Below are positions 1-64,000 of a DNA stretch of 64,000 nucleotides, piece after piece. How positions within the stretch are numbered: the first letter of the stretch is position 1; the number at the start of each line of letters is the position of its first letter. The position numbers were made by a program, and so were the translations under genes. The DNA is from Sipunculus nudus (Eukaryota > Annelida > Sipuncula > Golfingiida > Sipunculidae). The notes under the pieces are model-generated. The model had not been told where the DNA came from, searched no databases, and worked only from the letters and a program-made list of their open reading frames with translations. The stretch spans positions 21,407,508 through 21,471,507 of the forward strand of contig CM049313.1 of NCBI GenBank assembly GCA_026874595.1, read 5' to 3'.

Positions 1-1008
1 ATGTTATCATTTTACAAAAAATGTCTGTATGAGTGGTCTGATTATGTAACAGTGATTCCAGAGTCAGCAGAAGAAGTTAGAATACAGTCACTCTGGAACA
101 TTTCTTTCTTAAAGATAAATAGTAAGTCATTTCATTACCCTTCTCTTGATTTTCATAATATTAAAACAGTTGGAGACCTGATGACTGTAACAGGTAACCT
201 TTATACCTGGAATGAGTTACAGAGGGCTTATATCCAGCTATATCAGTAAGAGAATTTATGCCATGGAGGTCAATTGTTGATGCAGTACCAAAGGATTGGA
301 TTGAAAGAGTAAAATCAAAGGCTCCTGGGCAGTTAGAAACTGTAATGAAAGATGGATGTGATTTTATTCAAAAAATTGGTGGAATATGCAACCCTTTAAA
401 ATAAGACTCAAGGGCAGTGTACAAAGTATTGATTAAACAAATATTAGTACCACCTGCAAAAGAAAACAACTGGGTTAAAACCACAAATATATGTCCAGAA
501 GACTTGAAACAATTTTATATTTTAATACATCAAACTTTCTTGGATATGTACGGCAGAGAGTTTCAGTTCAAAGTGATACATAATTATTTACCAGTTAACT
601 ATTGGTTACATAAATGGAAATTGTCTGATACTCCACGCTGTTCGTATTGTCATATTGAATATGAGACTATTACACATCTCTTTTTTGAATGTTTTGTCTC
701 AAAGAAACCTATATTTTATAATACAATCGTGGTTGGAATCAGAAGGTATTATACTGCCGTGTATTTGTAGGAAAACTGTTTTATTAGGAGTATTACCAGG
801 GACAGAAAATTGTTTAATCAATCAAATTATATTGACGTATAAATTTACTCTATATTTTAATAGAAAAGAACATGGAGTCGACCTTTTTGCAGATTTCGTT
901 CGTAGAATAATATCTGTACAAAACACTGAGTATACTATTGCACAAAGTAAAGATAAAATGTCTTTACATGTGAAGAAATGGAACAAGATGTTACCTCATT
1001 TGCACTGA
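1..1008 (+). pseudogene. LINE ORF2 C-terminal fragment, frameshifted
   Basis: Three overlapping reading frames together give the usual C-terminus of a LINE ORF2 protein, downstream of the reverse transcriptase domain. Frame 1 (to 249) holds the W-N-I-S...K-I-N-S-K segment followed by a V-G-D-L block. Frame 3 (246-770) carries a P-K-D-W block, an in-frame TAA at 402-404, and then the zinc-binding-like motif P-R-C-S-Y-C-H...E...I-T-H-L-F-F-E-C near 630-700. Frame 1 resumes at about 735 (S-W-L-E-S-E-G) and continues through L-L-G-V-L-P-G and a Y-K-F-T-L-Y-F block to the stop near 1008. Two frameshifts and one stop make it non-functional. Such a protein would have nicked and reverse-transcribed target DNA. 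The match to the family is by motif order, not by a search. Confidence 0.75.
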
Positions 1009-1830
1009 TTAGTCATCAATTTGAAACTAATGTAATGAATGTTTATGTATGTATATATGTATGTAAATATATATGTATATATATATGTATGTGTATTTAT
1101 ATATGTTTGTGTGCATATATATACGTGTGTATATGGGAGCATGATTTAATATGCATATGTAGATGTTTGAAGGTGCTCATACACTAATTTAGATTTGAAG
1201 CACCTTGATGGATATACTATTTTTTTTTACATAGATGAACGCAGGTCCCTACGGTTCCATATCAAATTTGTATTAATTATTGTTGAGTAATGCACTGTAA
1301 ATAAGAATACGTGCATAATTCATTGATTTTGTATTCCACAGACCACTTTCAATATTATTCAGCATGTGTTTCTCTGTACCTGTAACTTGTGTGTAATATG
1401 TACTGTGACGCTTAATTGTTTTGTTCGAAGTTCAGTTATGTATTGTTCGTGTATCTCATTGTTTAGGTGATGTTTCTGTTGTGTAAATACATATCAAGAG
1501 TGGATTTGAGGAAAATATAGTTTATTTTAAGTATATATATGTTATGGCTCTTGTGAGCTATTCCACTCAGTCATTTTGGGACAGACTCGGCACTGCTGTT
1601 AACGAGGGTGGCTTGCTCTCTCACTGCATCTAGCAGTGCTGTCGGGCAGCTTTGCCGATGCTCGTCCTGATGGGACTAGGTGGACAGACTGACCCCAGTA
1701 TATGTTAAAATTACACTATTATATGTAAACAACACGTTCTGTGTATGTGTGCTGTGCCTTTGTAAATGTCATGTGAATTGTATTATTATCCTTGTTGTAT
1801 TACTTTCTTGTGAGAATAAAAAAAATAATT
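1..1830 (+). mobile_element. 3' end of a non-LTR (LINE) retrotransposon
   Basis: The left edge cuts into a LINE. The first kilobase is a decayed ORF2 C-terminus (separate entry). After it comes an untranslated tail of about 800 bases with a TA/TG-rich tract at about 1040-1140. An AATAAA signal at 1815-1820 runs into an A-rich stretch, which I take as the element's 3' end. The tail was chosen because no other repeat boundary lies between the last stop at about 1008 and the A-rich run. The 5' part lies outside the window. The copy is a dead, frameshifted insertion. Clade assignment (L1/Tx1-like) is inference from the layout of the C-terminal domain. Confidence 0.72.
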
Positions 1831-1983
1831 ATATGAACCGTCTTGCATATTTTGTTCATCCCTTTCAGTCAAATAGTATAGTGCCTCGATAATTGTCATA
1901 AGAGATTTTATATAAAGTATATCCCTTTCTTCACTGTGGCAGAAAATGTAGAGTCACCTCTTGGTTAATGGACAGTTAGCCCC

Positions 1984-2106
1984 TTTTCCATGATCGCGTT
2001 TCTGCGTGCGTTTTTTTTCCGCGCGCGGAAAAGTCGCGCGATTGATTTTCCGCGCGGGTATGGTCCGGAAACTCGATCATGGAAAATGTGCCTTAGTCGC
2101 GACTAA
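1984..2106. repeat. CpG-rich nested palindrome
   Basis: Three inverted repeats are packed together. The outer arms 1984-1996 (TTTTCCATGATCG) and 2074-2086 are exact reverse complements, and the match extends inward with mismatches. Inside is a perfect 18-bp palindrome at 2015-2032 (TTTTCCGCGCGCGGAAAA). Just outside is a perfect 14-bp palindrome at 2093-2106 (TTAGTCGCGACTAA). The block is GC-rich and CpG-dense in AT-rich surroundings. It could be a small fold-back MITE or a cruciform-forming site; no target-site duplication is clear. Confidence 0.6.
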
Positions 2107-2756
2107 CATCTTTTTCACTTCGATGAGTTATGTTACAGTTTCCATTACAAGATGTAATTGGTAACTTTTAATTATTTATTTATTTTTTACTCTCATTTGG
2201 GCCGCCAAACCCAATTTTTTCGTACCTAGAACTCGGCCTAATATGCCATTATGCCATTATTTAGGATATGGGCACCTGAACACATGGCCGTATTATATTA
2301 GCTTGAGACATTTGATGTTCTTATTTAAGGGGATGCTGAGTGGAGTAATCATGAGGGTTAAAGTTTTGTCTCACACTTATGCCCCCCGTATAGCAAAATC
2401 CTTGATCCGCCACCGACATAGTCAGAACAACCGTTCCAAGACATTAAACAAACAAATGTGCTGCTTCGACTGCAAAAGAAAGTTCTACAGACTCGAGGGC
2501 AATATGAGAAGTAAACAAATATAATTGATGACAAAATACTCAGATCGCTGCTACATGCCAGGTGGGATACGAAAAAGGGACCACAGTTCTTGAATCGATG
2601 CATATGAACAGTGCGAAGATTAGTCCTATTAAATAATACTATGTACGAGTCCTTTGTAAGGACTTTGCAAAATCACCGATTAATGTTAAAGGCAAAGGTA
2701 CGGGGTTTATAGTCTTCTATTACCGCTGTAGTCGCAGTCTAAGCCGACTTTTAACA
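2107..2756. other. Gene-less stretch with a hAT-like MITE fragment
   Basis: No convincing exon. At 2381-2412 the minus strand reads GGCGGATCAAGGATTTT followed by a run of G. This matches half of the intact MITE at 10985-11078 and is probably a remnant of the same family. The rest looks like unique AT-rich sequence. Confidence 0.4.
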
Positions 2757-3041
2757 CTTTGTCTTCCTGGTCTGTCGGGCCTGTTCATTCTTGTTTGTTT
2801 TTTTTTCGGCTCCCTGGGGAGCATACAACCCAAGCAGCCATTACAGACGCTAGAAGGTTATTCGTTCTACATTTCCCTGCCACCCATGGCCACTACTCAT
2901 ATACTCCTGGGTCGAGTGAGCGCACCCTTGTGGTTAAGACTTTGGCCAGGAGTCTGAGCGAAAACGGCGATCTGAACGGGACGCGAACCCACAACCTCCG
3001 GTCAGAGGTCCCGCGCCCCTACCATTACGCCACCACGCTCC
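2757..3041 (-). mobile_element. tRNA-derived SINE
   Basis: On the minus strand the sequence starts GGAGCGTGGTGGCG and carries an A box TGGCGTAATGG (3022-3032) and a B box GGTTCGCGTCC (2979-2989), spaced as in a tRNA. About 220 bases of non-tRNA body follow, with an A-rich run near 2797-2806. The spacing between boxes and the extra body indicate a SINE rather than a working tRNA gene. Transcription would have been by RNA polymerase III. The anticodon arm does not fold cleanly. The body contains a GGCCATGGGTGGCAGGGAAA-like segment that may be a shared SINE core, which I could not confirm. Confidence 0.65.
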
Positions 3042-3439
3042 ACAAAATATCTGGGGACTTGTCCCTAACGAAAAAAAAATACTGAGCACACGAAAAACGG
3101 GACGACTCCATAGAATATTGTGGGTGTGGCCTAAAAAGGCGTCTGATATATTATTCTTTCTTAGCGTTAAGTGAGTAACGTTAGATCAGATGAGAGTGCC
3201 TCAATATCTTAACCGATGCTCATCAAGGCTTGACAAACAGGCTAACCCATCACCTATATAAACTCAATAACAGACGCTTAGCTGTCATATATTTTTTAAT
3301 ATAACTTCAGTATTCAGACATACTTGTTTTGGGAGCTTTTTTTAACATTTTATAACGAAAAGCCTATGGCGTGTTGTTGGGACTTTCTAATAAGTGTGGG
3401 TGAAAGATAACCATAGTAAAAATGCTATGTTACTATTTA

Positions 3440-4030
3440 GGCTTAAGGGTTTCAGGTTTCACGCGTACGGGCTGGGAATAATTGAGGTTTTACAACCTGT
3501 CGTAAAACAGGGTGAATATCCGAGGTTCTCTTGAGGATTCACAGTTTCGTTTCGCTCAGTTTGCTCAGAATCGGACCCACAAGAATACGACTTGGTTATA
3601 GGGTTTGTGGACTTCATAATCGGACACCCAGAATGCACCGGGGCTTCTAAATACACCAGCGGTGTAGGTATAAATGAATTTCAGAGGGTACAGGGTAGTT
3701 CGTTCAGATATGTTTGACGAGGAATGTTTCAAGGTAAATTACATAAACATGTATGTTTTTGTGGTAAGTCTCATTAAGTAATATTTTGTAAGCGTATTCG
3801 CAAGTGAAATGTATACAGAAGGTGTTTTCTTGAAAATTAACATATTTTGATTTAAAGTTTGACAGTTGAGACAAGAAGTCCTGGCCGGCCCACACTGACT
3901 GGCTAGAAGAGATTCGGTTTGAGTAGAGATGACCACTGGCGGAAAGGCGCGTTTTGCCTAATTGACTCTATCGGGGTTCAAACCATTGACCTTCCGCTTT
4001 GAGGTCAGACGCCTTAACCGTTTGAGTTTA
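3440..4030 (-). mobile_element. tRNA-headed interspersed element, copy 1
   Basis: The minus strand begins with a degenerate tRNA head: an A-box region TCAAACGGTTAAGG at 4012-4025 and a B box GGTTTGAACCC at 3974-3984. The body matches the segment at 25040-26010 (for example AGGGTTTGTGG and ACCAGCGG near 3600-3660, and AATGTA.ACAGAAGGTGTTT near 3810-3825). The end near 3450-3510 matches 47880-47945 (TTTCAGGTTT...GGGAATAAT...ACCTGTCGT). A reverse-oriented partial copy lies at 53760-53925. These shared blocks define one family. Boundaries are approximate. Confidence 0.55.
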
Positions 4031-5874
4031 TCCTAACCCTTGCCAGCTTCTTTTACTATGCATAGATAATATACAGTATTCGTCTGATAATAAATCAAGT
4101 TTTCGATGTTTCCTTAAAAAGTTGACAGGATAAGTATTCCGCCTAAAGTGCGCAGAAGTTGGGAAATCAATTAACAAAATCAACTTAATTTGGAATGAAT
4201 GCCATAAAGTAAATCCAGAAACATATATCAAACCGAAAAAGGAATACCTTCTGTCAAATTTACATGAAAGATAGTAAAAGGAAAAAAATACATAAGAACA
4301 AGCTTTATTGAAAGATATATTGTGGCGCAAGTGTAAATCAATTTGAACTTCTGACGTTTTCCTAATTGGTGTTGGTATGGAAATAAGTGTCTACTAAGCG
4401 TGGCACATTATTGTGGCTTCTTTCCTTTTGTCAGTGACGAGTAACCGACCTACCCTAGAAGCAGAGAAAAACAATTCAAAGCCATGAAATAGTTAGAGCG
4501 TGAGAGAATGACTTCATGCGAGTTGGAGTAGAGAAAGAATTGGCCGACACGCACAAGGGAAATATATAGAACACCATCTGGTCTCAGTGGAAAAACCAAG
4601 TAATTTTTTTCGGCAGCAATGGTCCTGATTGCATATTTACGAGTGGCACAGAGGCAACTGAAGAACGCCTGCTTCCTGTACGCGGAAGATTGACTCTCAG
4701 AATAGGGAACCCGTACTTCAACTTTCAGTATGTCTTACTGAGGTGTCTGTTAAACTAGTTTTTTTTTGGTTTCCACGTGATGCACGCTTTCCCCTTTTTT
4801 TCTGAATCGAAGTCCTTTTTTGTTAAGACGTGCCCTGCTTGGATTGTATGACATGGAACGTCTTTGTAAATTATCAAAAAACAAAACAGCTTAGGCAAAA
4901 CCGTTTTAACAATAATTAATGTTAATCAGATTTTCATAGGGATAAAGCACCAATGCGCAAATTAATTTATTTCGTAGGGATAGTGTATTCTATAATTGTA
5001 TAACTGTTGCAAAACAAGGTACACTTTCCGTTAACATTCTCATACCTGAAAGCTGCATCCGACTAGTTGCGTTGTGCCAATATTCCCACTTTTTTTTAAC
5101 GAAATTTGAGTTAGAAAAGAAAATTCACTAGTCCCCGATTCATGCGGGAAAGACATGTAGATAAAATTGTAACCATGGTCATTATTGTATCACAAGAAAC
5201 ATTCTCTTTATAGAATTATAATTAGTATGTAGATGGTATAAAATCCTACTCGGCATCGGTTGTAAAATCAAACTTGATGATTGAAAGTTAAAAAACGACA
5301 GATGATCGGGTATTTATCGATTATTTTATACACATCAATATTACCGTGAAATATGCTGTATAGAATTATATATCTAATATATTGACCGAGCAAATTAAAT
5401 CTAACGTGTAAATCCCGCTGAAAGGGCAAGGTGAAAGGTTAAGTCTTAATGGTGTTCGCCGGCCTGGGCCCCATCTTTCTTATACATCTGACAAAGTATT
5501 GGTATTTTACCGGGATAACATGACCAATCATTGAAAAAATCGATTAATTTGCTCACTACTGGTAGATATTCTTATTGCAAAAACCGTTTAGTGCGGACTA
5601 GACTTATCTCAATGTTAACAAAAAAGCACACTTCTACCTAGCAGTGTGTTATAGTCATTGTACTATAGGCTGTTTAAGTGTGAGGGCAAAAGGAATCAAG
5701 TGTAGCATCATTGACCATGAAAAGTGCACAATATGATTATAATAGCTAGTACGTTTTCCAATATCAAAATATTGCTTAAAAATACTGTTCTGTTTCTGTG
5801 TGTTTCTTTAACAAAACCGTATTTTTTTTCTGCGCACATATATTTTTTTCTGTTCTAATGCGTATTTTACCTGA
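4031..5874. other. Gene-less AT-rich stretch
   Basis: No feature is assigned. An open stretch at about 4577-4756 on the plus strand has a protein-like composition and a possible acceptor near 4590, but at this length it can arise by chance. The remainder is AT-rich with no repeat that I could match inside the window. Confidence 0.4.
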
Positions 5875-6147
5875 AATATTACCGTCCGGCTTATATATTG
5901 CCAAATCGATCGTGCCTCTGACGGAATCAAGTTTCTCTACAAGTATTGTTTCGGAATCCGTACGAACTTCCACGAAGAAATACAAAAAACTTATAACGTT
6001 ATTACAGTTTTTCCAAAGAAGGACTATGTGAAAGCATTTGCAGATTATATCCAGGCCCGTGACACTTCAATGGCGAGCGTGCCCTTCCCGCAGATCAACC
6101 AAGGCTTAGAATCGTTGAAGCACTTCATTTCCGCGCCGGAAGCCTGA
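5875..6147 (+). CDS. Candidate terminal coding exon, unknown protein
   Basis: A frame on the plus strand is open for 90 codons from 5875 to a TGA at 6145-6147. Its composition changes from the AT-rich flanks to a mix with frequent C or G in third positions. The product reads as a soluble, mixed-charge protein with aromatic clusters (for example KFLYKYCFG, then FPKKDYVKAFADYIQARD, then a P-F-P-Q-I-N-Q-G block) and has no membrane segment. I do not recognise the family. No AG acceptor exists between 5765 and the AAG at about 5929, so the true exon may begin there (TTTCTCTAC...) with the upstream part open by chance. After the TGA the frame stays open to 6280, so a decayed longer gene is possible. 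Length alone is not significant. Confidence 0.32.
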   Translation, partial: NITVRLIYCQIDRASDGIKFLYKYCFGIRTNFHEEIQKTYNVITVFPKKDYVKAFADYIQARDTSMASVPFPQINQGLESLKHFISAPEA

Positions 6148-7137
6148 AGCAATGTCTTAAGCTGTACAAATGGAGACCGCGCCCTGCTACGAACGGGGTA
6201 CTCTGACATTAAACATTTCTACAGATCACGGCAGATTTTCCGTACAGAACGGGACAAATTCCGTCTGATCTCAAGCAGATGAAAACATCAGATCAAGTAA
6301 AGGTCTTTCTTGTATAAACACAAGTCCTTTATTTTACTTGATTATTGGACAAACAGAGGAAAGTTAGGAGATTAATTTGGAGCATTACCTTTATTCAATA
6401 TACCATTTGATAATATCTAGGTCACTCGGAGAAATATCTCGGTTCACTCCATCCTCCATTGAAGATACATTTATATTTTATCACTAATCTGTAAATTTCC
6501 TTCACGTTACTAAACGGAAACATGATATGCAGATATAATTTTAGTCATTACGACTAATAGTTAATGTAACGTACATGGTTACAGACGTTGATCAGCGGCG
6601 CACTCAGAGGTGAGATAATCTGACCCGTCTGACGGACCACCTGATATCAGTCTAGCCGGGACTTGATATCATATTAATGGTTACGTTGACTTTATTCTGA
6701 ACCACTCAGGGCTGTAGGAAGGCGACAATAGACGCTGGGTATGGTTTTATATTTACCACATAAATAATTCTGAAGACATTGCCCGAACAATACAGAAACG
6801 AATAGACATGCAAGTAAATTGCTGCTTTTTCGCGCCACTCAGCTGGGCGCGAGAGAGAAAAATGGAATCAAGGCAATGTCTGGTGATCTGTCTTGAAACA
6901 GCGGCACCTGATAAGTCTTGTCACAGTTTTCTATGAACTGCACAGAGTTACATGGACAGGATCAAAGCCAATGCCAAACGCAATACTGGCATATCTTTAT
7001 TCAAAGCAAATTCGGCATGTGCAAATCCTAAAAGTAACTTTTGATAAAACGTTTCGATGGATTAGGTCTGGAACATCAAGGAAAAAATCTGCAATAAATC
7101 AGTTTTCCCTTGAATTTGTTCTGTACTACCTGAAACA
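6148..7137. other. Gene-less stretch
   Basis: The first 130 bases continue the open frame of the preceding candidate exon and contain an ATTAAA at about 6211, a possible poly(A) signal. After that I see only AT-rich sequence with short chance ORFs. Confidence 0.4.
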
Positions 7138-7250
7138 AATTGTTACACTTTAGCACCCTTGCCATTTTAATATTTTTTTTTCAATTATGTTAACATTAAA
7201 CATGTATTCAGGTAATTCAGTAATTATATATAATAACAGACTATATCTAA
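7138..7250 (+). repeat. Dispersed repeat, partner of 11283-11385
   Basis: About 100 bases are shared with 11283-11385: ATTGTTACACTTTAGCACCC / ATTGTCACACTTATGCACCC, then a nearly identical TTAACATTAAACATGTATTC block and GTAATTATATATAATAACAG. It is probably a short interspersed element. It sits outside the duplication at 10345-12181, whereas its partner sits at the junction of that duplication. Confidence 0.6.
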
Positions 7251-8097
7251 ATAATTAATACGGAGTTGTTTTTTTTCTAGATAGAGCGTCCGTCTCTGTT
7301 ATACAGAGGCGGAGAGCACTGCATGCATTCGTGTGGTACCCTGTCTGATATTACTAAATGTCCGTCCTTTGGCCAAATTACCAAACATAATCTAGCTAAC
7401 ATACCCTTAACAACGAGTCCTTACTTGTTTTCTTGCTCAAATAAGAAAATAAAACATATAATCCAGGTGCAAAGTTCAGAAGCGATGCTCGCAGGTTTCT
7501 AACCAAACATGACATGTTGCTTTAGGGTCAAGGACACAGGGAGAAGCCAGTTCATAGTCCTTCCTCTGATTGGCTGTTAGGTTTCAGGCTCATACATCAT
7601 GGACATCGAACTTAATTCCAAGCATAAGATTTACTGCCTGGTCCCTAAAATAGTGCCATCTAGTGAATAAAACAGAAAGTGCAAGCAAAACAATGGTTCC
7701 AAGCGGGGCCAGTAGCATCCTGCAAAATTTCTCGTTTTCACTTATTAGAAATGGTTCACACACCCAGTAAAGACCCACGTTTGTTTATTTTAAGCTTATT
7801 ATCTGATTTATCTAAATTTCTGTGTCCTCGCTCGCACACCAATATTTTCAATAGAGTGCTCGTAAGCCTCACTGGGAGGCTTACTAAGTAAGCTAGGTTT
7901 TTTTCTAAACCGCCCTGACCACGGTTTACCTGCTTCCGTTCTGATTTGACTCCAAATTCGGCAGACATATCGGTGGTGTGCTATTCTAGGACAAGTTTGT
8001 TTTATTTCCGGGACTATGCCATATTAAGCTGAATTATTAATAATTGTAATATTTTCACATTAGGTGCCCCTATTTCTTTTGTGCTGTATGGTCCTCC
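7251..8097. other. Gene-less stretch with a short hairpin
   Basis: There is a perfect hairpin at 7862-7884 (GTAAGCCTC, loop of 5, GAGGCTTAC). On the minus strand an ATG at 7718 opens a 42-codon frame ending at 7590, starting M-L-L-A-P-L-G-T-I-V-L-L-A-L, just after a TTTTGCAG. It is too short to call. Confidence 0.35.
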
Positions 8098-9620
8098 ACG
8101 CCTGTGACGCTTTTTCAGGAGGCGCCTCAGGGATTTTCACTGGCCTGTTAAGACCGTGGCCAGAGCGCATGTCCTGCCCAAAAGACATTTCCGTGCAATA
8201 AGCGGTCAGGCGGGTCCACTATAATCCCCATTGATCCCACATATCCATTGTAACGCCTCTAAAGGAATTTTCTCTCTCAAAAGGAAGTAAGGGTTTTTAA
8301 TCAAAAGACCACATGACTCCGTTTTCAATGCGAGGCCTTTTCAGTTTGGTCAACACTGGGCACTTAGTCAAGTGATGTTACTACCGTTTGACAAATTTTT
8401 TATGGGTTACAGGTATGTTGATTTTTATACATTCAAAAATATAAGTAATGTGTTTTGTGAAGTTTTTTTTTTTTCATGAAGAAGCCCCACAACCTAATTA
8501 TCATTCGGGTTGGGGTGGAGTGGGGGAGGGGGGAGGGGTTCACATATATTTGTTTAGATCCGTTGTCTGTAGGGATGGTGAAACATAAAAAAATATCACC
8601 TGTATATCATTAAATTGATAACAAACTAGGATCTGAAGTCAGGGCGTACAGACCTCCATCAGAATTTCCTTCAATATATTTCATGTCTTCACGTGTGTGC
8701 GTTTCATGTGTGAACACTGTCATGCTTCAGTTACACGAGATCATTTTGCGAGTAGCAGAATAAATAAATACAAATGGGTGGCTTCCACACGTGGCAAAGA
8801 ATGGTCATTTGTTATAATGGTTTATAAGAAAATATATATTGTGGTGATTCTTATTACCCCCTAAATAAAAATGGACTATTGATATGTCATTACCCTAACC
8901 CTCTACAAATGTTCAGCAAAACATTTTCACCTGGCACGTTTTTTCAGGAGGCGACCTGTAATCCCCGCTGAACCCTGTTTCCATTATATCGCCTGTTAAG
9001 GAATTTTACTCTGTCAAAAGGAAGTAAAGATTTTAAAATTCAAGCGCGAAACACATGTCCACATGAATCTTTTAAAAGGGAGCATTTTTCCCTTGAGTGG
9101 ACACAAGAGCTGAGACCCTTTACACGATCACCGCTTTTTAGGTTTACAGGCGTGTTGATTTTTATACATTCAGAAGTATCTTTCCATGATAACCATGGTT
9201 TTAATAGTTCGGTCGATTTATTGGTTAGTTGAACATTTTTTTTTTCAAAAGGAAGCCCTGGGGGGGGGGGGGGGGGGGGGATAGCACACACTTCTAAGGG
9301 TCCCCAATCACTTGGGGGCTTTGAAACCCCCGCCAGAATCTAATAATCAGTCGTTCGTTCATACGTGCACGTTTCATGTAAAACATTGTCATGGTTCAGA
9401 AACACGGATTCACCAGGCGAGTGGCAGAACAACTGCATACGAATGGTCGGCATCTACTCGGGGACAAAGGAATAACCACATATTTGTTCCTTTTTGGAAT
9501 TGTGATAATGGCACTTAGGAAAAAAATATATTAGGGTGATTTCGATTACCTCAAAAAATGTAATGGATTACGGATGCAGTTTAACTCTACCCCTCTACAA
9601 ATTTTCAGCAAAATCTGTAT
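8098..9620 (+). repeat. Old local tandem duplication, units about 830 and 690 bp
   Basis: Unit 1 (8098-8926) and unit 2 (about 8930-9620) align along their length in the same order: TTTTTCAGGAGGCG (8111 / 8942), AATTTT.CTCT.TCAAAAGGAAGTAA, GTTGATTTTTATACATTCA (about 8417 / 9155), CGTTTCATGT and TGTCATG.TTCAG (about 8700 / 9370), and CTCTACAAAT.TTCAGCAAAA (about 8901 / 9592). Many substitutions and indels show that the event is old. Unit 2 carries a 21-G run at 9260-9280 where unit 1 has G-rich sequence at 8509-8538. No gene is seen inside. Confidence 0.7.
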
Positions 9621-32924: not shown

Positions 32925-34440
32925 TAGCTCAGCTGACTGTGTCAGCTGAGGTATGGGAATGGCGCTTTGTCCGTCGGCCGTCCGGTCATCCGTTAGTAGG
33001 ACACAAATCATAACTTGAAACTTTTAAGTGAACATCCAGGGAAGTCAATAAAGAATATCCTTGGTAACCTGAAATCACTGCGACCTATATCCTCCGAGCT
33101 ATGGGGCTTGAAAGTACCCCCAAGCATTATAAAAAAAAATGACACAAAACCTCCAATATCTTGACAAATAATACATGGATTGTCATGAATCTTTCCTTGA
33201 ATATTGACTAGTTTGACTAGTTTTGTCAGTTCCCGAAAAGTGGTGGCGCCACCTGTATTTTTTCTTATCTTAACGAATATTTTTCTATTTTCTACTTGTT
33301 TCTCAGCTGTTATTACACCTAGTGTCCCAAAACCTGGTGTGTTTTATTGATTGCAAGTGGATACCCTGTTGCAATCAACCTGTTTGTCTTTTCGTCTGTC
33401 TGTCTGTCCATCTGGCCATCCACAGGAATCTTTTCAGATGATAACTCAAGGTTGGATTGACAGATGGGTTTAAAAATGGACCTACATATGGCCCACCACT
33501 AAAGCAAGAACCTGTATGATTTTTGGGTCATGAGGTCAAATGTCAAGGTCACAGGACTCACTTATTTTAAAAGATTATGGCTGCATTTTAAGCAAAGCTT
33601 TTCATCCCAAAATTTCCATCTTGCGCATATAGCTAACTAGCCAGTATTGGGAGAGTATAAATGAATTTAGGGTCACAAGGTCAAAGGTCATTGTCACACG
33701 GGCCATCTTTTCACAAATTAGTTTTCAAATGATAACTCCAGTTTGATATTTTGGTTCCAAACTTAAATTATATATGGCTCACCACTAACGTAAGAAACCT
33801 GTCGATTTTGGGGTCCAACGGTCAAGGTCAAGGTTACAGGACCCATTTCTTTAAAATGAATGTGTATGCATTTCAAGCCAAACTTTTTATCACAAACTTT
33901 CCATCATCAAGATATTGCTCACCTGCCAACAGGGAAAGATTCTATTCGATTTTAGGGTCATAGGGTCAAAGGTTAAGGTCACAGGGCCCATCCATTCACA
34001 AATTAGTTTATGGATGATAATTCTGCTTTGGATAGACAGATTGGCTTCAAAATTGATTTAGGTAAGAATCGTTTTGATTTTCAAGGTCCAGAGATCAAAG
34101 GTGAAGGTCACAGGAGCCAAATCTTTAAAAAGATTGTGGAGGCACTGTAAACCAAACTTTTCATCTCAAACTTTCCATCTTTCACACATGGCTGACTTGT
34201 CCAAAGTGAGGAAATCTGTAGATTTTGACGTTACTTGGTCAGAGGTCAAGGTCACTGGAACCACTTTTTTTTAAAGATTGTTACAATTATCTAAATGCTG
34301 CAAGTTCAAGGATAATAAGTTCTCAGATTTTTTGGTCACAAGGTCATTGGTTAAGGTCACAGGACTGTCATTCTGAAAAAAATTGTAAAAATATACTTAT
34401 AGACAAATTCAGCTGAGCGTCGAGATCCATGGGTCCCTAG
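32925..34440 (+). mobile_element. Bivalve-type interspersed element with internal tandem blocks
   Basis: The left end near 32925 contains a perfect stem CAGCTGAC / GTCAGCTG (32930-32948) followed by GGCGCTTTGTCCGTC. The right end is CAGCTGAGC...CCATGGGTCCCTAG (to 34440). The first third (33000-33320) is homologous to the tandem units at 54240-55450 (GAGCTATGGGGCTTGAAAGTACCCCC; GTGGCGCCACCTGTATTTTTTC). The remainder is the AGGTCA-rich tandem array (separate entry). End motifs similar to the right end recur at 55525-55556 and, reversed, near 62306-62336. No ORF supports autonomy. The class is unknown. Confidence 0.55.
33530..34370 (+). repeat. AGGTCA-rich tandem array, about 140-bp half units
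   Basis: AGGTCAAGGTCACAGG-like blocks recur near 33540, 33680, 33825, 33970, 34100, 34245 and 34345. Two alternating spacer types (one with TTTCACAAATTAG...GATGATAA, one with AAAGATT.TG...CCAAACTTT.CATC) give a 280-bp higher unit. A perfect direct repeat with one-base spacer, AGGTCA A AGGTCA, lies at 33678-33690. Confidence 0.75.
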
Positions 34441-34570
34441 TTTTAAATATTTTTTATGTTGGCGGTAACTATTTCCCTGTGTAATGCTTTATTAAGTAAC
34501 TATGTACATCTGTAGAATTAAAATCTGGTTGCGCACAACGTGACATTTCAATAGCACACACTTCCTCTCC

Positions 34571-54239: not shown

Positions 54240-55450
54240 GTGTACACTGTATGATCATGGAGTGTTTCATCAGTTTCTGCAGACTGGTGGTGCCACCTGT
54301 ATTTTTTCGATTTTTAAAGATATTTTTTTTCTATTTTTGAGACCTCAAAAGATGCCGTAGTCTGTTAACAAGGCACAAATCGTAACCGCTCGAAATGGAA
54401 TCTTCTCCCTTAAGATCCAGAGAGGTCCATGGAAATTCTTCTTGGAAACCTGGAATTTGGTCTCTGTTACCCATATTCTTCAAGCTATGGGGCTCCGAAG
54501 TACCCCCCAGAATAATGAAAAATTTGATACAAAAGCACAAGTATCTGAACAACTAATGCATTGATCACCATGATTCTTCTCATGGATATTAATCATGGAG
54601 TGTTTCTTAAGTTTCTGCAGACTGGTGGCGCCACCTGTATTTTTTCGATTTTTTTAAACAATTTTTTTCTCTATTTTGAAACCTTAAAAGATGCCGTAGT
54701 ATGTTAACAGGGCACAAATCGTTACCGCTGGACCTGGAATTTTCTAACTTTAAATCCAGATAGGTCCATGAAAAGTCTCCTTGAAAACCTAGAATTAGGT
54801 CTCTGTTGCCCATATTCTTTAAGCTATGGGGCTTCGAAGTACCCCCCCCCCCAGGATAATGAAATATTTGATACAAAAGCTCAAGTATCTGAACAACTAA
54901 TGCATTGATCACCATGATTCTTTGCATGGACATTGATCATTGAGTGTTACATCAGTTTTTGCAGACTGGTGGCGCCACCTGTATTCTTTATTTTTTGACA
55001 ATTTTTTCTCTCTATTTTTGAGACCTCAAAAGATGCCATCATCTGTTAATAAGGCACAAATCGTAACGACTAGACCTAGAATCTTCTTTCTTGACATGCT
55101 GGGAGGCCCATGAAAAGTCTTCTTGGAAACCTGAAATTCGGTCTCTGTCACCCATATTGTCCGAGCCTTGGGGCTCAGAAGTACCCCCCAGAATAATTGA
55201 AAATTTGATACCAAAGTAAGGCACAAATCATAGCCATGGGGCCCAGAATCTTCTAACTTGACATCCTGAGAGTTCCTCAAAGGTTTTCCCCAGAAACCTG
55301 AAATAGGGTCATAGTGATCTATATTCTCAAAGTTTTTGGATATGTTTGAGCACCCAAGAAATAATGCAAGATACACACAAATTGCCGGTTTCCTCATAAA
55401 AAGGCTGGTTGGATTGTCATCAAATTTGTTGTGCTTATGGGTCTTGATGA
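54240..55450 (+). repeat. Tandem array, about 340-bp units, 3.5 copies
   Basis: Unit starts near 54257, 54595 and 54940 read GAGTGTT.CATCAGTTTCTGC, AGACTGGTGGCGCCACCTGT, then GAGACCTCAAAAGATGCCGT and GGCACAAATCGTAACCG. A fourth, truncated unit starts near 55209. Each unit carries the GGTGGCGCCACC palindrome (GGTGGTGCCACC in unit 1). The unit is homologous to 33000-33320 inside the interspersed element, so the array probably grew from such a copy. The end near 55525 has GGCTGAGCGTCATGACCCAT, as at 34410. Confidence 0.8.
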
Positions 55451-55978
55451 ACTTAAGCTAATATGCATGAACAATGATGCCACGTACCTATCTTAATTGG
55501 TTCTCTGTGCAAGGACATATTATCAACATGTTAGTCGGCTGAGCGTCATGACCCATGGGTCACTTGTACCGGTTTCCTTCAACCATAACGGACTACGGAA
55601 CGCCACCATCTGAGCCATGGAGAGTGCAGCGATTAGTTATTACTATAATTACCATTTGTACAATCCATGTAAAAAAAGTTATATATTATATATTATATGT
55701 ACCAAAATGTAGGTATCAAACAACATCTGCAGCTGTTACAAAACAAACAAAGAAAGATTACTTTGAGTGCTGTCCTTTTTTAAAAGCAGGTAGGATGCTG
55801 CCAATCAAGGCAGGCGTCACAAACAATGGAACCTGTTGCTCCCGTCGGTGTTTCACTATAAAGTGGAAACATCTGCGTCGTTCCTGGAAGGCCCGATACC
55901 GTAAAAGCGAAACCATCATCATCAAAGTATTTGTTAAACAGGTTTCCTCATCGAGTCCAGTGTAAACTGTGTAGTTGT
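55451..55978. other. Spacer between tandem arrays
   Basis: The plus strand is open at 55555-55965. A segment 55713-55789 (K-K-D-Y-F-E-C-C-P-F-L) between AG and CAG|GTAGGA could be an exon, but it is weak. Nothing else. Confidence 0.3.
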
Positions 55979-58535
55979 GCACCAAACAAACGTGTGGCTG
56001 AATGTGTGACCACTATCACACAAAAAACGTGTGGCGGAAGGTGTGACCAGGATCACACATAGAAGCGTGTGGCTGAAGGTGTGACCACGATCACACATAG
56101 AAGCGTGTTGCTGAAGATGTGACCACTATCACACAAACAAACGTGTGGCTGAAGGTGTGACCGCTACCACACAAACAAACGTGTGGCTGAAGGTGTGACC
56201 ACTACCATACAAACATACGTGCGATTGAGGGTGTGTCCACCTCCACACAAACAAAAATTGTAGCTAGAGGTGGGACAACTATCACACAAACAAAATTGTG
56301 GCTGGAGGTGTGACCACTATCACACATAGAAGCGTGTGGCTGAAGATGTGACTACTATCATAAAAACAAACGTGTGGCTGAAGGTTATGACCACTACCAG
56401 ACAAAGAAAAGTGCAATTGAGGGTGTGACCATTATCACGCAAACAAACATGTGGCTTAAGGTTATGACCATTACCACAAAAAAAACGGGCGATTGAAGGT
56501 ATGATCACCTCCACACAAACAAAAATTGTAGCTATAGGTGGGACCACTATCACATATAGGAGGGTGTGGCTGAAGGTGTGACCAATACCACACAAACACA
56601 CGTATGGGTGAGGGTGTGACCACTATCACACAAAAAAATGTGGCGGAAGGTGTGACCACGATCACACAAAGAAGCGTGTGGCTGAAGATGTGACTACTAT
56701 TACACAAACAAACGTGTGGCTGAAGGTGTGACCACTACCACACAAACACAGGTGTGACTGAAGGTGTGACCACTACCACACAAACACAGGTGTGACTGAA
56801 GGTGTGACCACTACCACACAAACAAACCTATGGGTGAGGGTGTGACCACGTTCACACAAACAAACGTGTGGCTTAAGGTTATGACCACTACCACACAGCC
56901 AAACGTGCGATTGAGGGTGTGTCCACCTCCACACAAACAAAAATTGTAGCTAGAGGTGGGACCACTATTACACAAACAAACGTGTGGCTGAAGGTTATGA
57001 CCACTACCACACAGACAAACGTGCGATTGAGGGTGTGTCCACCTCCACACAAACAAAAATTGTAGCTAGAGGTGGGACCACTAATACGCAAACAAACGTG
57101 TGGCTAAAGGTGTAACTGCTTTCACACAAACAAACGTGTTTTTGAAGGTGTGACCACTAGCACACAAACAAACGTGTTTTTGAAGGTGTGACCACTAGCA
57201 CACAAACAAACGTTTGGCTGAAGGTGTGACCACTATCACACTAACAAACGTGTGGCTGAAATGTGACTACTTCCACACAAACAGGAAATGTGGTTGAAGT
57301 GTGATCGCTTTCACACAAACAAACGTGTGGCTGAAGGTTATGACTACTACCACACAAACAAACGTGTTATTGAAGGTGTGACCACTAGCACACAAACACA
57401 CGTGTGGCTGAAGGTGTGACCACTAGCACACAAACAAAATGTTGCTGAAGGTGTGACCATTATCACGCAACCAAACATGTGACTTAAGGTTATGACCATT
57501 ACCACACAAACAAACGTGCGATTGAAGGTAAGACAACCTCTACACAAAAAAAATTGTAGCTAGAGGTGGGACAAACACACACATAGAATCGCATGGCTGA
57601 AGGTGTGACCACGATCACATATAGAAGCGTGTGGCTGAAGATGTGACTACTATCACACAGACAAACGAGTGGCTGAAGGTGTGACCACTACCACACAAAC
57701 ACAGGTGTGACTGAAGGTGTGACCACTACCACACAATCAAACGTATGGGTGAGGGTGTGACCACTAGCACACAAACAAAGGTGTGGCTTAAGGTAATGAC
57801 CACTACCACACAAACAAACGTGCGATTGAGAGTGTGACCACCTCCACACAAACAAAAATTGTAGCTAGAGGTAGGACCACTATCACACCAGCAAACGTGT
57901 GGCTGAAGGTGTAACTGCTTTCACACAAACAAACGTGTTTTTGAATGTGTGACCACACACACAAACAAATGTGTGGCTGAAGGTGTGACCACTAACACCG
58001 AAACAAACATGTTTTTGAAGGTGTGACCACTATCCAACAAACACACGTGTGGCTGAAGGTGTGACCACTACCACACAAACACAGGTGTGACTGAAGGTGT
58101 GACCACTATCACACAATCAAACGTATGGGTGAGGGTGGGACCACTATTACACAAACAAAGGTGTGGCTTAAGGTAATGACCACTACCACACAAACAAACG
58201 TGCGATTGAGGGTGTGACCACCTACACACAAACAAAAATTGTAGCTAGAGGTGGGACCACTATCACACCAACAAACGTGTGGCTGAAGGTGTAACTGCTT
58301 TCACACAAACAAACGTGTTTTTGAATGTGTGACTACTCACACAAACAAACGTGTGGCTGAAGGTGTGACCACTAACACCCAAACAAACATGTTTTTGAAG
58401 GTGTGACCACTATCCAACAAACACACGTGTGGTTGAAGGTGTGACCACTGTCACACAAACAAACGTGTGGCTGATGTAGTAACCACTATCACACAAACAA
58501 ACGTGTTGCTGAAGGTGTGACCACTACCGCACAAA
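55979..58535 (+). repeat. 38-bp minisatellite, more than 60 units
   Basis: Consensus ACACAAACAAACGTGTGGCT then GAAGGTGTGACCACTACC. About 66 units fill 2.56 kb. Variant units (for example AAAATTGTAGCTAGAGGTGG and GTGCGATTGAGGGTGTG) recur in fixed order: a block from 57701 is repeated from 58081, giving a 380-bp (10-unit) higher-order repeat at the right end. The unit is not a multiple of three bases and contains few stops on the minus strand, so long Val/Cys-rich frames appear there; I regard them as artefacts. Confidence 0.92.
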
Positions 58536-60000
58536 CTAGACGACCATAGGTCGAACGCTTGCCGGAAATCGGAAGTGAAACATAGACGGACAGACAGAAC
58601 ATATTGTCGGTTTTCTATTAATGGAATGACTCTCAGGGACATTGCTGAGAATATGTGGCCCGTAGAATGACATATGAGACAAAAGAACAGGCAAGCAGAC
58701 AAAGCTGACAACAAAAGACGAACAGACAGACATACTGACTCTGTGAGACAAGATTGACACCAGATGACATAACCTGGTGATTGAGAAGATTCAAAGGAAG
58801 AAAATGAGTTATAATTTATGTAATTTAGATTTATAATTTTGGAGGTTTGGCGAATTAATGATATACTAGGGAGGCTCGACTGTAGCGCCCTCTAGCAGAC
58901 ATATTCCGAAGACGACAAATGCGTTTTGTATTATTAGTGTATACCATGAGATGTCCCAGTTTCAAAAGGATTCCGTCAAAGCTGTGGCCTGTAGAATGCT
59001 ATATGTAAGGCGTAAGAACCAGCAAGCAGGCGACTTTGAGGATAACGGACAAACAGATGGACACACTGACAAAGTGACAGAAGATTGAAACCAGATGCCT
59101 TAATCAGGTTATGGAGAAGACTCAAAGGAAGAAAATAAGCCAAAGTTTATGTAACTGAGGCTTTGGGTGTAGATATATGGCCAATACAATGGTATGTGTG
59201 TGAGGGTCGTGTGCAGCGCCCACTAGTGGCCATATCCGGAAAATGAAAAAATTATTTCTAGATATTAGTGTAAGACATAAGATGTAATAGTTTCAAAAGG
59301 ATTCCGTCAAAACTGTGGCCTAAAGAATGCTATATGTGAGACGCAAGAGCCAACAAGCAGGTGTATTTGTGGACAACTGACAAACAGACGAAAACACTGA
59401 CAAAGTGACTCAAAATTGAGTCCAGATGACTACTCCAGGTTATGGAGAAGACTCAAAGGAAGAAAAAAGCAACAGTTTATGTAACTGAGGTTTATAGTTT
59501 TGGAGATATTGCCAAAGCATGATATGTTGGGAGAGGTTCGAGATCAGCGCCCCCTAGCGGCCATATCCGGAAAATGAAAAATTGGTTTCGAGATTTTAGT
59601 GTAAGACTTAAGATGTAATAGTTTCAAAAGGATTCTTTCAAAACTGTGCCCTTTAGAATGCTATATGTGGAGACGCAAGAGCAAGCAGGCGAATTTGAGG
59701 ACAACTGACAAAGAGACAGACACACTGACAAAGTGTCACAAAATTGTGACCAGATGACTACACTAGGTTATGGAGAAAACTCAGAGGAAGAAAATAAGCT
59801 ATAGTTTATGTAATTGAGGCTTATAATTTTGGAAATATGGCCAAAATATGATATGTTCGGGAGGTTCGCATCCAGCGCCCCCTAGCGGCCCTATTCAAAA
59901 AATGAAAAAACGATTTCGAGATACTAGTGTAGGACTTATAATATGTCAGTTTCAGAAAGATTCCTGCAATAATGTGGCCTTTGGCGCAAGATGAATAAAA
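58536..60000 (+). repeat. Tandem array, 330-bp units, about 4.4 copies
   Basis: TCAAAGGAAGAAAA recurs at about 58788, 59121, 59452 and (as CTCAGAGGAAG) 59781, steps of about 330 bases. Each unit has AGCGCC...CTAG...GGCCATATCCGG, GATTCCGTCAAAACTGTGGC, GACAAACAGACGNACACAC and CAGGTTATGGAGAAGACTC. The sequence CTAGACGACC..AGGTCGAACG at 58536 recurs at 60481, suggesting that a larger unit frames this array. Confidence 0.85.
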
Positions 60001-61189
60001 TCTCGAAATATCTCTATTCACGAGATATTTTACGAGATACTGCAATACTTTTATAAAATCTTGTAGTACTAGTTGAATGCTACCTGATGCAAAAAACTAG
60101 ATCACACTAGCTTTAAAACTGACAAAGTTAGAAAAATAAGACCCCTTATATTCGAATATCATGACTATTCCCCCAAAATTTGTAACCATGGTTACGGCAA
60201 ATTTGAGTCTGCTACACACCAGATGACAGGCCTTGGAATGACGATTAAAATGAGCTATTATTGAAGTAGATACGACTAATAGTCACAAAGATATGAAGAA
60301 AAAACCGTTTTGAGAATTTTTGACGACCTTGACCTTGACCTTTGACCTATTTTAACCAAAAACAATAGGGCACCTAGAAATTTAATTCTCCATCATCTCT
60401 GAAAGTTTTAAGGTGATTGTGGCAAAATTGTGGCCAGGAGAGTGCAGACAAACAAACAGACAGACAGACAAACAGACAGACTAGACGACCAGAGGTCGAA
60501 CGCTTGCCGGAAGCGGAAATAAGAAAGTCAAACTAGTAGACAACATACAGCAGACAGTCAGGTTACATTTGGAACTGGTCAAATGAATTACCCCAATTAT
60601 GGCGGAAACAGAAGCACAATTTTGTGTGGTTATGCTGATTTTCAAAAGTCGCAGATGAGTAGACAGACAAACAGACAGGCAGACGGGAAAAAAAAACTCC
60701 ATGTGAAGGCCATGTACTCCTGTCATGGAGAATAGAAAACAGTCTATTAGAATAAAACTCCATATTTTGAATTTCAAGAAAAAGAAGAATATAATTGTAA
60801 CGTATATTAAGTCACCATTGTAATTGAAGAATATGACAGTGTCCCCACGAGGATAAACGCATTAATCTAGTTTCAGATGCTGCAATGAATGTTGTGACAC
60901 TGTTTATGGTTTTAAAGATAACACATTATGGCACAATAATGATTGCTTCAGCCTCATCTAGCGGCTATTTTCTAAAAGGAAAAAAATAAGTTCCCAGATA
61001 TTTTTTTTATTATATGTATTTGATGTATAATTATATTTAACCCCTGCAGAATATGACTCTTTATGTTAGCTTTCCAAGTGCTAGCAAATTTTTCCGGTCA
61101 ATGGTTACCATGGTAACGTATTTTTGGGGGGAAATCAGAAAATTCGAAAAATTCCCTCCAAATTTCTCATTTTTTAAGTTAGAGAGGTT
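60001..61189. repeat. Diverged relatives of the 330-bp unit and spacer
   Basis: 60430-60521 repeats the GACAGACA...CTAGACGACC junction. Near 60950, AGCCTCATCTAGCGGCTATT looks like a decayed copy of the AGCGCCCCCTAGCGG block, followed by AAAAGGAAAAAAATA. Palindromes GTAACCATGGTTAC (60182-60195) and GTTACCATGGTAAC (61104-61117) and a TGACCTTTGACCT (60336-60348) lie here. No gene is seen. Confidence 0.5.
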
Positions 61190-61980
61190 TAGTTTTTTGC
61201 ATTGTGTAGCATTTGATATGCTCTATGGAAAATTAATAGAAGTCTCGCAAAATCTCGTGCCATTTGTCGTCAAATGAGACTTTTCGAGATTTCATTAAAT
61301 ACGATTTAGAGGTGGCACTTTTACAGCTAAGGTTCTGAAAGTGACATATTTTCTGTTTTTCTGTATTATCTCGAACTTGTTTTTTTCATTTTTCGAAAAA
61401 AGCCACCAGGGGGCGTGGTACAGGAAACACTACAACTTTTCATTTTTCCGCAATATCTAAAAAAATATTAAGCATATAACATTTTTTTTTGTCGCATCCT
61501 AAACTAGGATCATTGGCTTATTCCTTTGTACATATAGGCTTGTGCCGCTTGTTACCAAATCTTAGGGTTAAATTTGACAATCTGAAAACATGATGTTTTT
61601 GGCTTTTATCTCTGTTAATATTTATGCTACAAGGGTGAAGTTTTTTGTATAAGGCAGCATTCTCTTGGTTCCGTTTATCGTCAAACGAGAAATTACGAGA
61701 TTTTAAACAAATATCTGTATCTCAGCTATTTTAATGCTACAAGGGTCTAGTTTTTATTGTTCTAGGATTTTTTAGTAGATCAAAGTGACACAAGTGAATA
61801 TCTCGTCAAATCTCGCACCATTTGTCGTCAAACGAGAACAGAGGATCATTTAAACAAATGCCTATAATGCTGTCATTTTTTACACTACAGACATATAGTT
61901 TTCAGCATGTGACAGCGTCTGACACTCTCAGTCATATAATGTGATTATATAGCAATTCCCGTCAAATCTCGCCTGTATAA
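61190..61980 (+). repeat. Irregular tandem array with TCGTCAAACGAGA motifs
   Basis: Blocks CTCG..CCATTTGTCGTCAAA.GAGA recur near 61250, 61675, 61815 and (partial) 61955, with ATGCTACAAGGGT...AGTTTTT between them near 61625 and 61736. Spacing is about 140 bases for the later units. Confidence 0.6.
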
Positions 61981-62127: not shown

Positions 62128-62310
62128 ATGAAAATAACAGGTGTGTTCAATTCAAATGTAGCGGCTTTTGTCCTCTATTCAATGCTGCTTTGTGAAATTC
62201 ATGGACGACCGCCCACGCCAACTTGCAACTGTAATGGCCTTGCCGGCACTTACCGGTCAACCCTGAAGCCACTTCTGCTCACGGCAATTGGATGTATCTT
62301 CATCATTTGA
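62128..62310 (+). CDS. Candidate 60-residue secreted or GPI-anchored peptide
   Basis: The ATG at 62128 has A at -3. The frame encodes 60 residues and stops at TGA 62308-62310. The first 26 residues form a leader (F-V-L-Y-S-M-L-L core). Then comes a short polar middle with Pro-rich R-P-P-T-P-T and C-N-C. A hydrophobic C-terminus (P-L-L-L-T-A-I-G-C-I-F-I-I) follows. Hydrophobic ends around a polar middle are what a GPI-anchored precursor shows. Third positions become C/G-rich in the second half. I do not know a family. It stands directly before an interspersed-element end (62306-62336), so it could instead be part of that repeat. No introns or promoter are visible. Confidence 0.3.
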   Translation: MKITGVFNSNVAAFVLYSMLLCEIHGRPPTPTCNCNGLAGTYRSTLKPLLLTAIGCIFII

Positions 62311-64000
62311 TAAACAAGGGACCTATGGGTCACTGTGCTCAGCTGACGTTAACCTTGAAGGTGAAAATCTAAAATAATATCTAATGGAGATAAAGTGTAA
62401 GAGGTAATAAAGGCCATGGTTGGTTTATATGATTGGTTTGTATTGATGAGCAAGAAATTGTTGCAAAAAATATTTTGTGACCTGACCATGTGTTTCCTAA
62501 TGTTGAAACTAAAGCATGTGAGCAGTTTGTGAACAAATGACCTGTACTATTACCATGATCATTAGTTGGTTTTTCAATTAACTGTTGACATTTCAGTAGT
62601 TTACACATTTGTTCAATTGAATCTATTTTTTTGTATAATATATATTATTGAATATATATGTATTTTATTTATGAAATGTATACAGTTGAAATATAGCTAA
62701 TTAACAACATAAAACAGGGCAAACAAAGCCTGATCTCAAATTCTGCTGAGGCAGGAAAATAATGAAGAAATGTTTGTATTAAATCCTAATTTTTTTATCA
62801 CATCAATTATTTTCTAATTTAAGTTTATATTTCTATACATTTCCAATTTAACATATATATCTGAATATAAAAGTTGATTCATAATTCTCAATTGCATCAT
62901 CATAAATCTCAATCTTGTCAGATAACACCACATCATGCATACAAATGTTTATTTATTTTTTACCACAAAAATATATCTTTTAAATCTGCAAAACAATAAA
63001 TATCTAAAAATAATACTTGATTTAGATTTCACAATTTTTAATTGTGTCTTTATTTATCCATAATGTACTTCATATTTTATAATAATTAAAGCATACTGAT
63101 GGGTTCCTTTATATTTGTTAAAATCATTTAAAAGAAAATTGATTTCTTTAAAAATGCTACATTACACAACATTGCATCTTCTGGATTACACCTTGAATTA
63201 TTTTTTCAAGGAAAGTTTTTGCATATCGGAGTGGAAACAGCATTACAATTAAGGAGATACAGTGAAAACAATAACAATTACTGCATAACACTTGGTGGGT
63301 TGGGTTTTCTGGGGGGGGGGGGGTGATTGGGGTGTCGATATGAGAATAACTGTACACCTGTAACAGCACAGCAGGGGATCTCCCCCAGTGACTGTAACAA
63401 ATCAGAAACCCTGGCATAGCTGACTTCCAGTGACCTGGAGTGGGACCCTGCATCTGTAATCAAAGCAAGTGACTACAGAAAAAAAATCAATAACTATCTT
63501 AATTTTCAAGCTTTTATTTCCAAATTTCAGATTTAGACAAACTAAATATTTATGTTAACATGCTGTGAAAATTAAATCAATGGTGCTTACAGGAAAAAAA
63601 CGTGCCATGGTCAAAGTTGGGCAAAATTTAAGGTACTGATTTTTTTTTATGCTAATAACTTAAAAAATTTACAAAATTCAGATCTAATTTTGGGTAAACA
63701 ATTGAATCTTAATTAAACATAGTTATATACTTGAAAAAGTAGACTCTAGTTTCAAAATTTTTTATGTTAAGTGAGTTATTATTTTTCCTGATTTTTTACA
63801 AAGTCCAATATGTTTGGGCCCACAACTTAAAGAATTTATACTTTAGAGACTTAATTTCTGGCATGTACATAGGAACTATATAGAGGAATATTTATGGTAA
63901 ATATGAGGAAAAACAGATGAGTGGTTTTGATATGAGGCAGTCCTGAAGTGTGAAAATAGGATTTTAATAAAAAATTGAGGTTTTTCCTTAATTTCTCAAA
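62311..64000. other. Gene-poor AT-rich right edge
   Basis: The reversed element end GGGACCTATGGGTCAC lies at 62309-62324. A poly(G) run lies at 63311-63323. One exon candidate on the minus strand (63358-63453) is described in the findings. Otherwise nothing. Confidence 0.35.

Follow-up and report, generated by a model that had tools for sequence, protein, structure and literature searches.

Why should several unrelated tandem arrays follow one another within a few kilobases of the Sipunculus nudus genome? The question is raised by 7.7 kb of the window, by which we mean the whole stretch of 64,000 nucleotides analysed (C8:21407508-21471507). A preliminary description had seen there four unrelated tandem arrays with units of about 340, 38, 330 and 150 bases, placed end to end with short spacers, the first of them seeded from a transposon at 32.9 kb. 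Searches of the 1.43-Gb assembly (153 contigs) lead us to a different answer: these 7.7 kb are very probably a landing zone of HINEs, that is, non-autonomous Helentrons, in and beside a minisatellite.

Periods and features of the locus

Three of the four periods are supported. TRF reports array 1 at 54252-55189 (period 339 bp, 2.8 copies, 84% matches), array 2 at 55983-58536 (38 bp, 67.1 copies, 75% matches) and array 3 at 58717-59980 (331 bp, 3.8 copies, 78% matches), and the autocorrelation at 339, 38 and 331 (0.448, 0.638 and 0.583) exceeds the maximum from 100 first-order Markov resamples in each case (0.340, 0.304 and 0.327, respectively). These arrays fall within 5.7 kb, and the array density at 54-60 kb is above that of the rest of the window, where positions 1-54000 hold one TRF array with a period of at least 20. 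The end-to-end arrangement needs amending for arrays 1 and 2, which lie ∼0.8 kb apart. The ∼150-bp array did not survive: TRF reports none at 60.5-61.98 kb, and across 60500-61980 the autocorrelation peaks at 0.327 (lag 125), inside the resample range (maxima with a mean of 0.313 and a largest value of 0.337). This fourth stretch holds degenerate same-strand pieces that are 65-69% alike over 85-125 columns, one pair of which is 147 bp apart. No Rfam family matched within the window at gathering scores, and the three window ORFs queried against Pfam gave no match. The features to which we refer below are as follows.

32925-34441, plus strand: related HINE with both ends, containing a ∼145-bp array and, at 33031-33291, a divergent segment of the array-1 unit
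54252-55567, plus strand: HINE-A copy without its 5′ end, containing array 1 (TRF; one-block alignment to L011, L012 and L023)
55536-55567, plus strand: HINE-A 3′ terminus with subterminal repeat CGGCTGAGC, palindrome GACCCATGGGTC (55550-55561), then ACTTGT; also in 16 of 18 other loci
55983-58536, plus strand: array 2, left block of the 38-bp minisatellite (TRF; genome search; phase across the insert)
58537-60486, minus strand: HINE-B body with array 3 and a GTCT/GTTT microsatellite (60445-60486)
58537-58567, minus strand: HINE-B 3′ terminus with subterminal inverted repeat and palindrome CGACC-TAT-GGTCG
60487-60520, minus strand: second HINE-B-type 3′ terminus, abutting the microsatellite directly with no 5′ module between, a kind of junction also found in L030
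60521-64000, minus strand: remainder, within the window, of a ∼10.26-kb insert that runs on to about C8:21476303 and ends in a HINE-B 5′ module
61057-61974: left arm of an inverted repeat (the supposed fourth array); right arm at 64211-65320 in extended window coordinates, 91.5% identical over 623 columns and 91.8% over 294
62305-64000, minus strand: nested A′-type HINE between the arms, with its 3′ end near 62305-62343 and its 5′ end past the window near L010:6313
C8:21476301-21485227, outside the window: array 2, right block (TRF of L035 and L036)

Two element families that carry arrays 1 and 3

A genome search with the array-1 unit gave 3411 first-look candidates, of which 40 were scored, and we analyzed 10 kb of surrounding sequence for 18 of these (L011-L028) together with the window's own (L009). 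A 5′ terminus of the TAGCTCAGCTGACT type (at most 2 mismatches) is present in all 18 loci, 18-93 bp ahead of the first unit match, and in most of them, L012 and L017 excepted, it continues with GTCATCTGAGCT and a GTCC/GTCY stretch. A 3′ terminus of the GCTGAGCGTCATGACCCATGGGTC type (at most 4 mismatches) is found in 16 of the 18, 315-347 bp past the last unit match; it is missing from L013 and from L018, where the array is interrupted by another element. The subterminal inverted repeats of this family, HINE-A, are AGCTCAGCTGAC with its complementary GTCATCTGAGCT on the left (no clear inverted repeat in L012 and L017) and CGGCTGAGC on the right. The palindrome GACCCATGGGTC occurs in the same number of loci as the 3′ terminus and in the window (at most 4 mismatches over the terminus), and the family also has the GTCC/GTCY microsatellite past the 5′ end in most copies and central tandem repeats. 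These elements, which have fixed ends, are dispersed over many chromosomes and contain one to seven full units (at least 300 bp) each; the copies in L014 and L015 are nearly identical, and L011 has a tandem pair. The window's copy has the 3′ end, at 55567, and the right-side subterminal repeat only; a 5′ end was looked for in this copy and not found. Units are no closer within a locus than between loci (86.1% vs 86.9% identity), and of 59 units, 24 have their nearest neighbor in their own locus, a number to which the L011 duplication contributes 12.

The resemblance of array 1 to the element at 32.9 kb, on which the idea of a seeded satellite was built, is borne out: 33031-33291 aligns to 54412-54677 at 71.5% over 270 columns. 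The 32.9-kb element has AGCTCAGCTGACT at 32926, the complementary TCAGCTGAGG and a GTCC/GTCG stretch on its 5′ side, and its 3′ end, TCAGCTGAGCGTCGAGATCCATGGGTCCCTAGT, terminates at 34441. The two are truly related, and both are transposons. Because array 1 forms the core of a HINE that is dispersed and here 5′-truncated, and the 32.9-kb element is its relative, array 1 is borne by a transposon rather than being a satellite seeded by one. The tie to a transposon thus stands and the proposed direction does not; nothing shows a free satellite arising from an element.

Nesting is observed within this family as well. A′-type elements lie inside array-1 units of L018 and L019, and their flanks, when joined, align unbroken to intact array-1 units, as at L028 5241-5479 (91%, 240 columns) and L012 6288-6525 (93%, 239 columns). 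An element in L012 lies inside another tandem array, with weaker joined-flank matches (72-81%). In this search for empty sites, 23 end pairs were tried against the loci analyzed here and three matched across the junction.

Array 3 is the core of a second, minus-strand family, HINE-B. A genome search with its unit gave 1594 first-look candidates, of which 40 were scored at 97-100% identity to the queried unit, and six loci (L029-L034) were picked among those closest to unit 3. Two of them, L031 and L034, are complete copies of ∼2 kb on the minus strand, in which the order is TTTGTTGCTTGCCGGAA, the complement TTTCGGCAAGC, the GTCT/GTTT microsatellite, the array, and TTCCGGCAAGCGTTCGACCTATGGTCGTCTAG before TTT. 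The subterminal inverted repeats are GCTTGCCGGAA on the left with the complementary TTTCGGCAAGC, plus TTCCGGCAAGC; like HINE-A, the family carries a microsatellite and central tandem repeats. The 3′ terminus is present in all six loci, the palindrome in all six and in the window, and the 5′ module in four (L031-L034). In L030, as in the window, the 3′ terminus abuts the microsatellite, and the alignment of L029 departs earlier. Window positions 58531-60486 are 97-98% identical over ∼1.95 kb to five of the six loci and 97% identical over 1.4 kb to L029. When units that occupy one position are compared across loci, identity is 98.1% (84 pairs, minimum 96.1%), a value biased upward for unit 3, to which these loci are closest, and unbiased for the other three units; between different units within one locus it is 77.6% (42 pairs). 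Identity of 98% between loci against 78% within an array indicates that array 3 was built once and has spread whole with its element, and, like array 1, it is found on many chromosomes within elements whose ends are fixed.

A minisatellite split by a nested insert

The 38-mer of array 2 behaves differently from the units of arrays 1 and 3. Its genome search returned only two candidate regions, both scored and both on C8 (79 matches); as the search skips very common words, single-locus status is strong but not absolute. The second region, the right block, begins ∼10.3 kb to the right of the left block, and the two blocks (right, 8.9 kb; left, 2.6 kb) total ∼302 copies and ∼11.5 kb at one locus, a modest length for which minisatellite is a better term than satellite. 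Units of the two blocks mix (79.1% between blocks vs 77.3% and 79.6% for neighbors within, with the right block represented by its first 3.1 kb). By TRF, the interior of the right block is the most regular part (89% matches vs 77% for its left part and 75% for the window block). The left block has a weak 10-unit (380-bp) period; the match list of the right block contains 266-bp spacings, with no peak beyond the 38-bp ladder. The array probably grew by unequal exchange. A conserved hairpin in the 38-mer (TGTGA...TCACA) was considered and rejected: the 148 units show no compensatory change, and 69 of the 143 scored have a broken innermost pair, so there is no evidence of a folded strand in the 38-mer.

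The last bases of the left block, ...CGCACAAAC, reach to 58536, and position 58537 (C8:21466044) is the first of the HINE-B 3′ terminus; the right block begins with AAACGTGCG directly past the HINE-B 5′ terminus ...TTTCCGGCAAGCAAC. When the flanks are joined, 64 of 90 positions match the 38-mer in phase, compared with 41-52 at ten other offsets. The insertion point reads CGTTT/GTTTG, a T-rich (TT) target, with the phase restored and no target-site duplication, and, bar a few ambiguous letters, none of the array was lost or duplicated. The two blocks are therefore one ∼11.5-kb minisatellite split by a ∼10.26-kb insert. The empty site is unusually clean, because ∼300 undisturbed 38-bp units show the original target.

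The outer ends of the insert equal the HINE-B 3′ and 5′ modules. Inside it, a third HINE is nested, with its 3′ end at 62331 and a body that resembles the A′ elements of L018 and L019; it is enclosed by a ∼0.9-kb inverted repeat (∼91.5%), one arm of which is the supposed array 4. To the right of the nested HINE and the right arm lie tandem 5′ modules and further body pieces. In L010, the HINE-B 5′ module stands in tandem at 7677-7924 and at 9181-9379, with a 59-67-bp period and 3-4 copies, a pattern that looks like repeated copying of the left end. Transfer of the whole insert as a single mobile block was considered and not upheld: none of four other loci probed carries both ends, where the C7 copy was read fully and the others over 350-451 bp around the expected ends, so that a shifted end would escape. 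The C7 copy has 60087-65703 in common with the window at 96.6% (5.6 kb), nested HINE included, and then diverges, and the locus at C1:66.67 Mb has the 58537 terminus only, near the collinear place. A stack of HINE-B-type modules describes the insert best; these would have either arrived in one piece or been built up in place by later insertions.

One part of the insert has many close copies. A probe of 60525-60960 gave 871 candidates, and among the 40 scored, nine, one of them the window's, show full identity over 436 bp; six of the nine are on C1, four of these within 65.29-65.44 Mb, a distribution that likely reflects recent spread or local duplication. Within C1:65290149-65440079, five copies of this stretch at 100% (four with full score, one slightly lower) occupy 150 kb and form a recent local duplication cluster.

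The series of events that we favor is as follows. A 5′-truncated HINE-A with its 339-bp core adjoins a 38-bp minisatellite that the genome search placed at this locus only. A HINE-B, or a stack of HINE-B-type elements, landed on the minus strand within a single 38-bp unit, between two of its TTTG motifs, dividing array 2 into its 2.6- and 8.9-kb blocks and carrying in array 3 as its own central repeats, the inverted repeat and the nested HINE. By this account, arrays 1 and 3 arrived by transposition of whole elements, and array 2 grew locally. The termini, the dispersal, the in-phase junction and the nesting are direct observations. From membership of the family, transposition would have been of the rolling-circle type and driven by an autonomous Helentron.

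The strongest competitor, which we nonetheless judge improbable, makes array 2 the core of a very low-copy HINE and the 10-kb stretch an element nested in an element. The cores of HINEs are diverse in sequence, according to the available part of one account (PMC7492417), and the 38-mer contains CAAACAAAC, which resembles the HINE-B microsatellite. Against it, the search found the 38-mer at one locus only, and neither an A- nor a B-type terminus is present in the left flank (55568-55982) or, by eye, in the first 1.2 kb of the right flank, a comparison that termini of an unfamiliar family could escape. Less probable still is a compound heterochromatic domain in which four unrelated satellites were amplified side by side. 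The crowding of three arrays into 5.7 kb would suit it, as would array 2, which resembles locally grown satellite DNA in that its interior (89% matches) is more regular than its edges (75-77%). Against it, arrays 1 and 3 occur on many chromosomes within elements that have fixed ends, same-position units of array 3 are far closer between loci than units within an array, and the fourth stretch is no array; most of the supposed satellites are parts of dispersed HINEs with internal tandem repeats, and array 2 alone behaves as an independent array. An assembly misjoin or collapse has slighter odds again, for although such repeats are error-prone, an insert bounded exactly by HINE-B termini, past which the 38-mer resumes in phase, is hardly expected from a misjoin, and the contig spans 80.9 Mb.

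HINEs in and beside a minisatellite thus remain our preferred reading, and the locus shows that a string of unrelated tandem arrays can form without a transposon seeding a satellite, by a route in which Helentrons that carry repeats insert next to and within a pre-existing array. The case suggests looking for HINE termini wherever a satellite is called in such genomes. We further entertain, as a tentative joint proposal, that the GTTT/GTCT microsatellite of complete HINE-B copies and look-alike TTTG repeats, the 38-mer among them, might serve as landing sites for further HINEs. Elements would then supply the target for later arrivals, giving head-to-tail stacks and nests, and composites, such as the one with an A′-type HINE (96.6% over 5.6 kb here vs C7), might move on as larger mobile units. 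If this were true, the way in which HINEs choose their targets would predictably give rise to compound tandem arrays as a by-product.

Published relatives and neighboring loci

The portions of the literature available to us describe HINEs as having a left subterminal inverted repeat, a complementary inverted repeat and a microsatellite, then central tandem repeats, and a right subterminal inverted repeat with a palindrome (PMC7492417, PMC4067079). As judged from sequence, the elements here match the published features (subterminal inverted repeats, palindrome, microsatellite, central repeats and TT target). The likeness to Cg_HINE of Crassostrea gigas, drawn from anatomy rather than element sequence, extends in the available text to a left module with subterminal inverted repeat, complementary inverted repeat and 4-base microsatellite (GTCY and similar), satellite-like central repeats in constant orientation, a right module with subterminal inverted repeat and palindrome, and a T-rich target with no target-site duplication; two arrays within one element are described (PMC7492417). 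Units there are mostly 140-180 bp, whereas those here are 331-339 bp, and in-phase insertion into a single-locus minisatellite is not described in that portion of the paper (PMC7492417). The DINE-1/HINEs of Drosophila, mites and mosquitoes, in the part of the source available, likewise have subterminal inverted repeats close to the 5′ end and tens of bases inside the 3′ end, a 3′ palindrome, a TT target with a variable number of T, and central repeats or a microsatellite; an autonomous partner was identified there and would be only presumed here (PMC4067079). Pearl elements of bivalves, later recategorized as non-autonomous Helentrons, also hold a short central-repeat array, a likeness of structure drawn from the available text (PMC7492417). 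Our explanation is ordinary in kind, being that of the repeat-carrying HINEs published in oysters (PMC7492417; also PMC11136912, each as far as available). The HINE members themselves would be new, as would an insertion that keeps the phase of a minisatellite apparently confined to one locus, although our literature search was too broad to call such a split unpublished.

Another TRF array (period at least 20, score above 100, tallied by eye) lies outside the element but within the 10 kb analyzed in 14 of the 18 array-1 loci, which indicates that neighboring arrays are common near HINE-A copies, as far as few controls allow: among four arbitrary 5-kb loci, a TRF array (period at least 20) occurs in one and an A-type terminus in two. 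In L012 (C3:97702000-97711999), positions 1-8409 contain successive unrelated tandem arrays with periods of 49, 71/176, 337, 54, 44 and 41 within 8.4 kb, ∼0.24 Mb from the C3 end, a compound domain stronger than that of the window. L014 (C2:3437000-3446999) and L015 (C2:247000-256999), near-identical, in opposite orientation and 3.2 Mb apart, have in common a HINE-A copy and an array of ∼58 units of 47 bp; they are an inverted segmental duplication or an assembly duplicate.

At window positions 1-767, open frames of 82 and 121 aa give the impression of a retroelement polyprotein end; a single 66-aa query from there had no Pfam match. Lastly, AGGTCA/TGACCT-type motifs (GACCTTGACCTTTGACC, GGTCAAAGGTCAAGGTCA), which we take to resemble nuclear-receptor half-sites, recur across otherwise different HINE bodies at the following places.

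33431-34384 and 60318-60352 of the window: AGGTCA/TGACCT-type motifs
L010:7500-7560 and 8980-9010: motifs of the same type
L035:700-730: motifs of the same type
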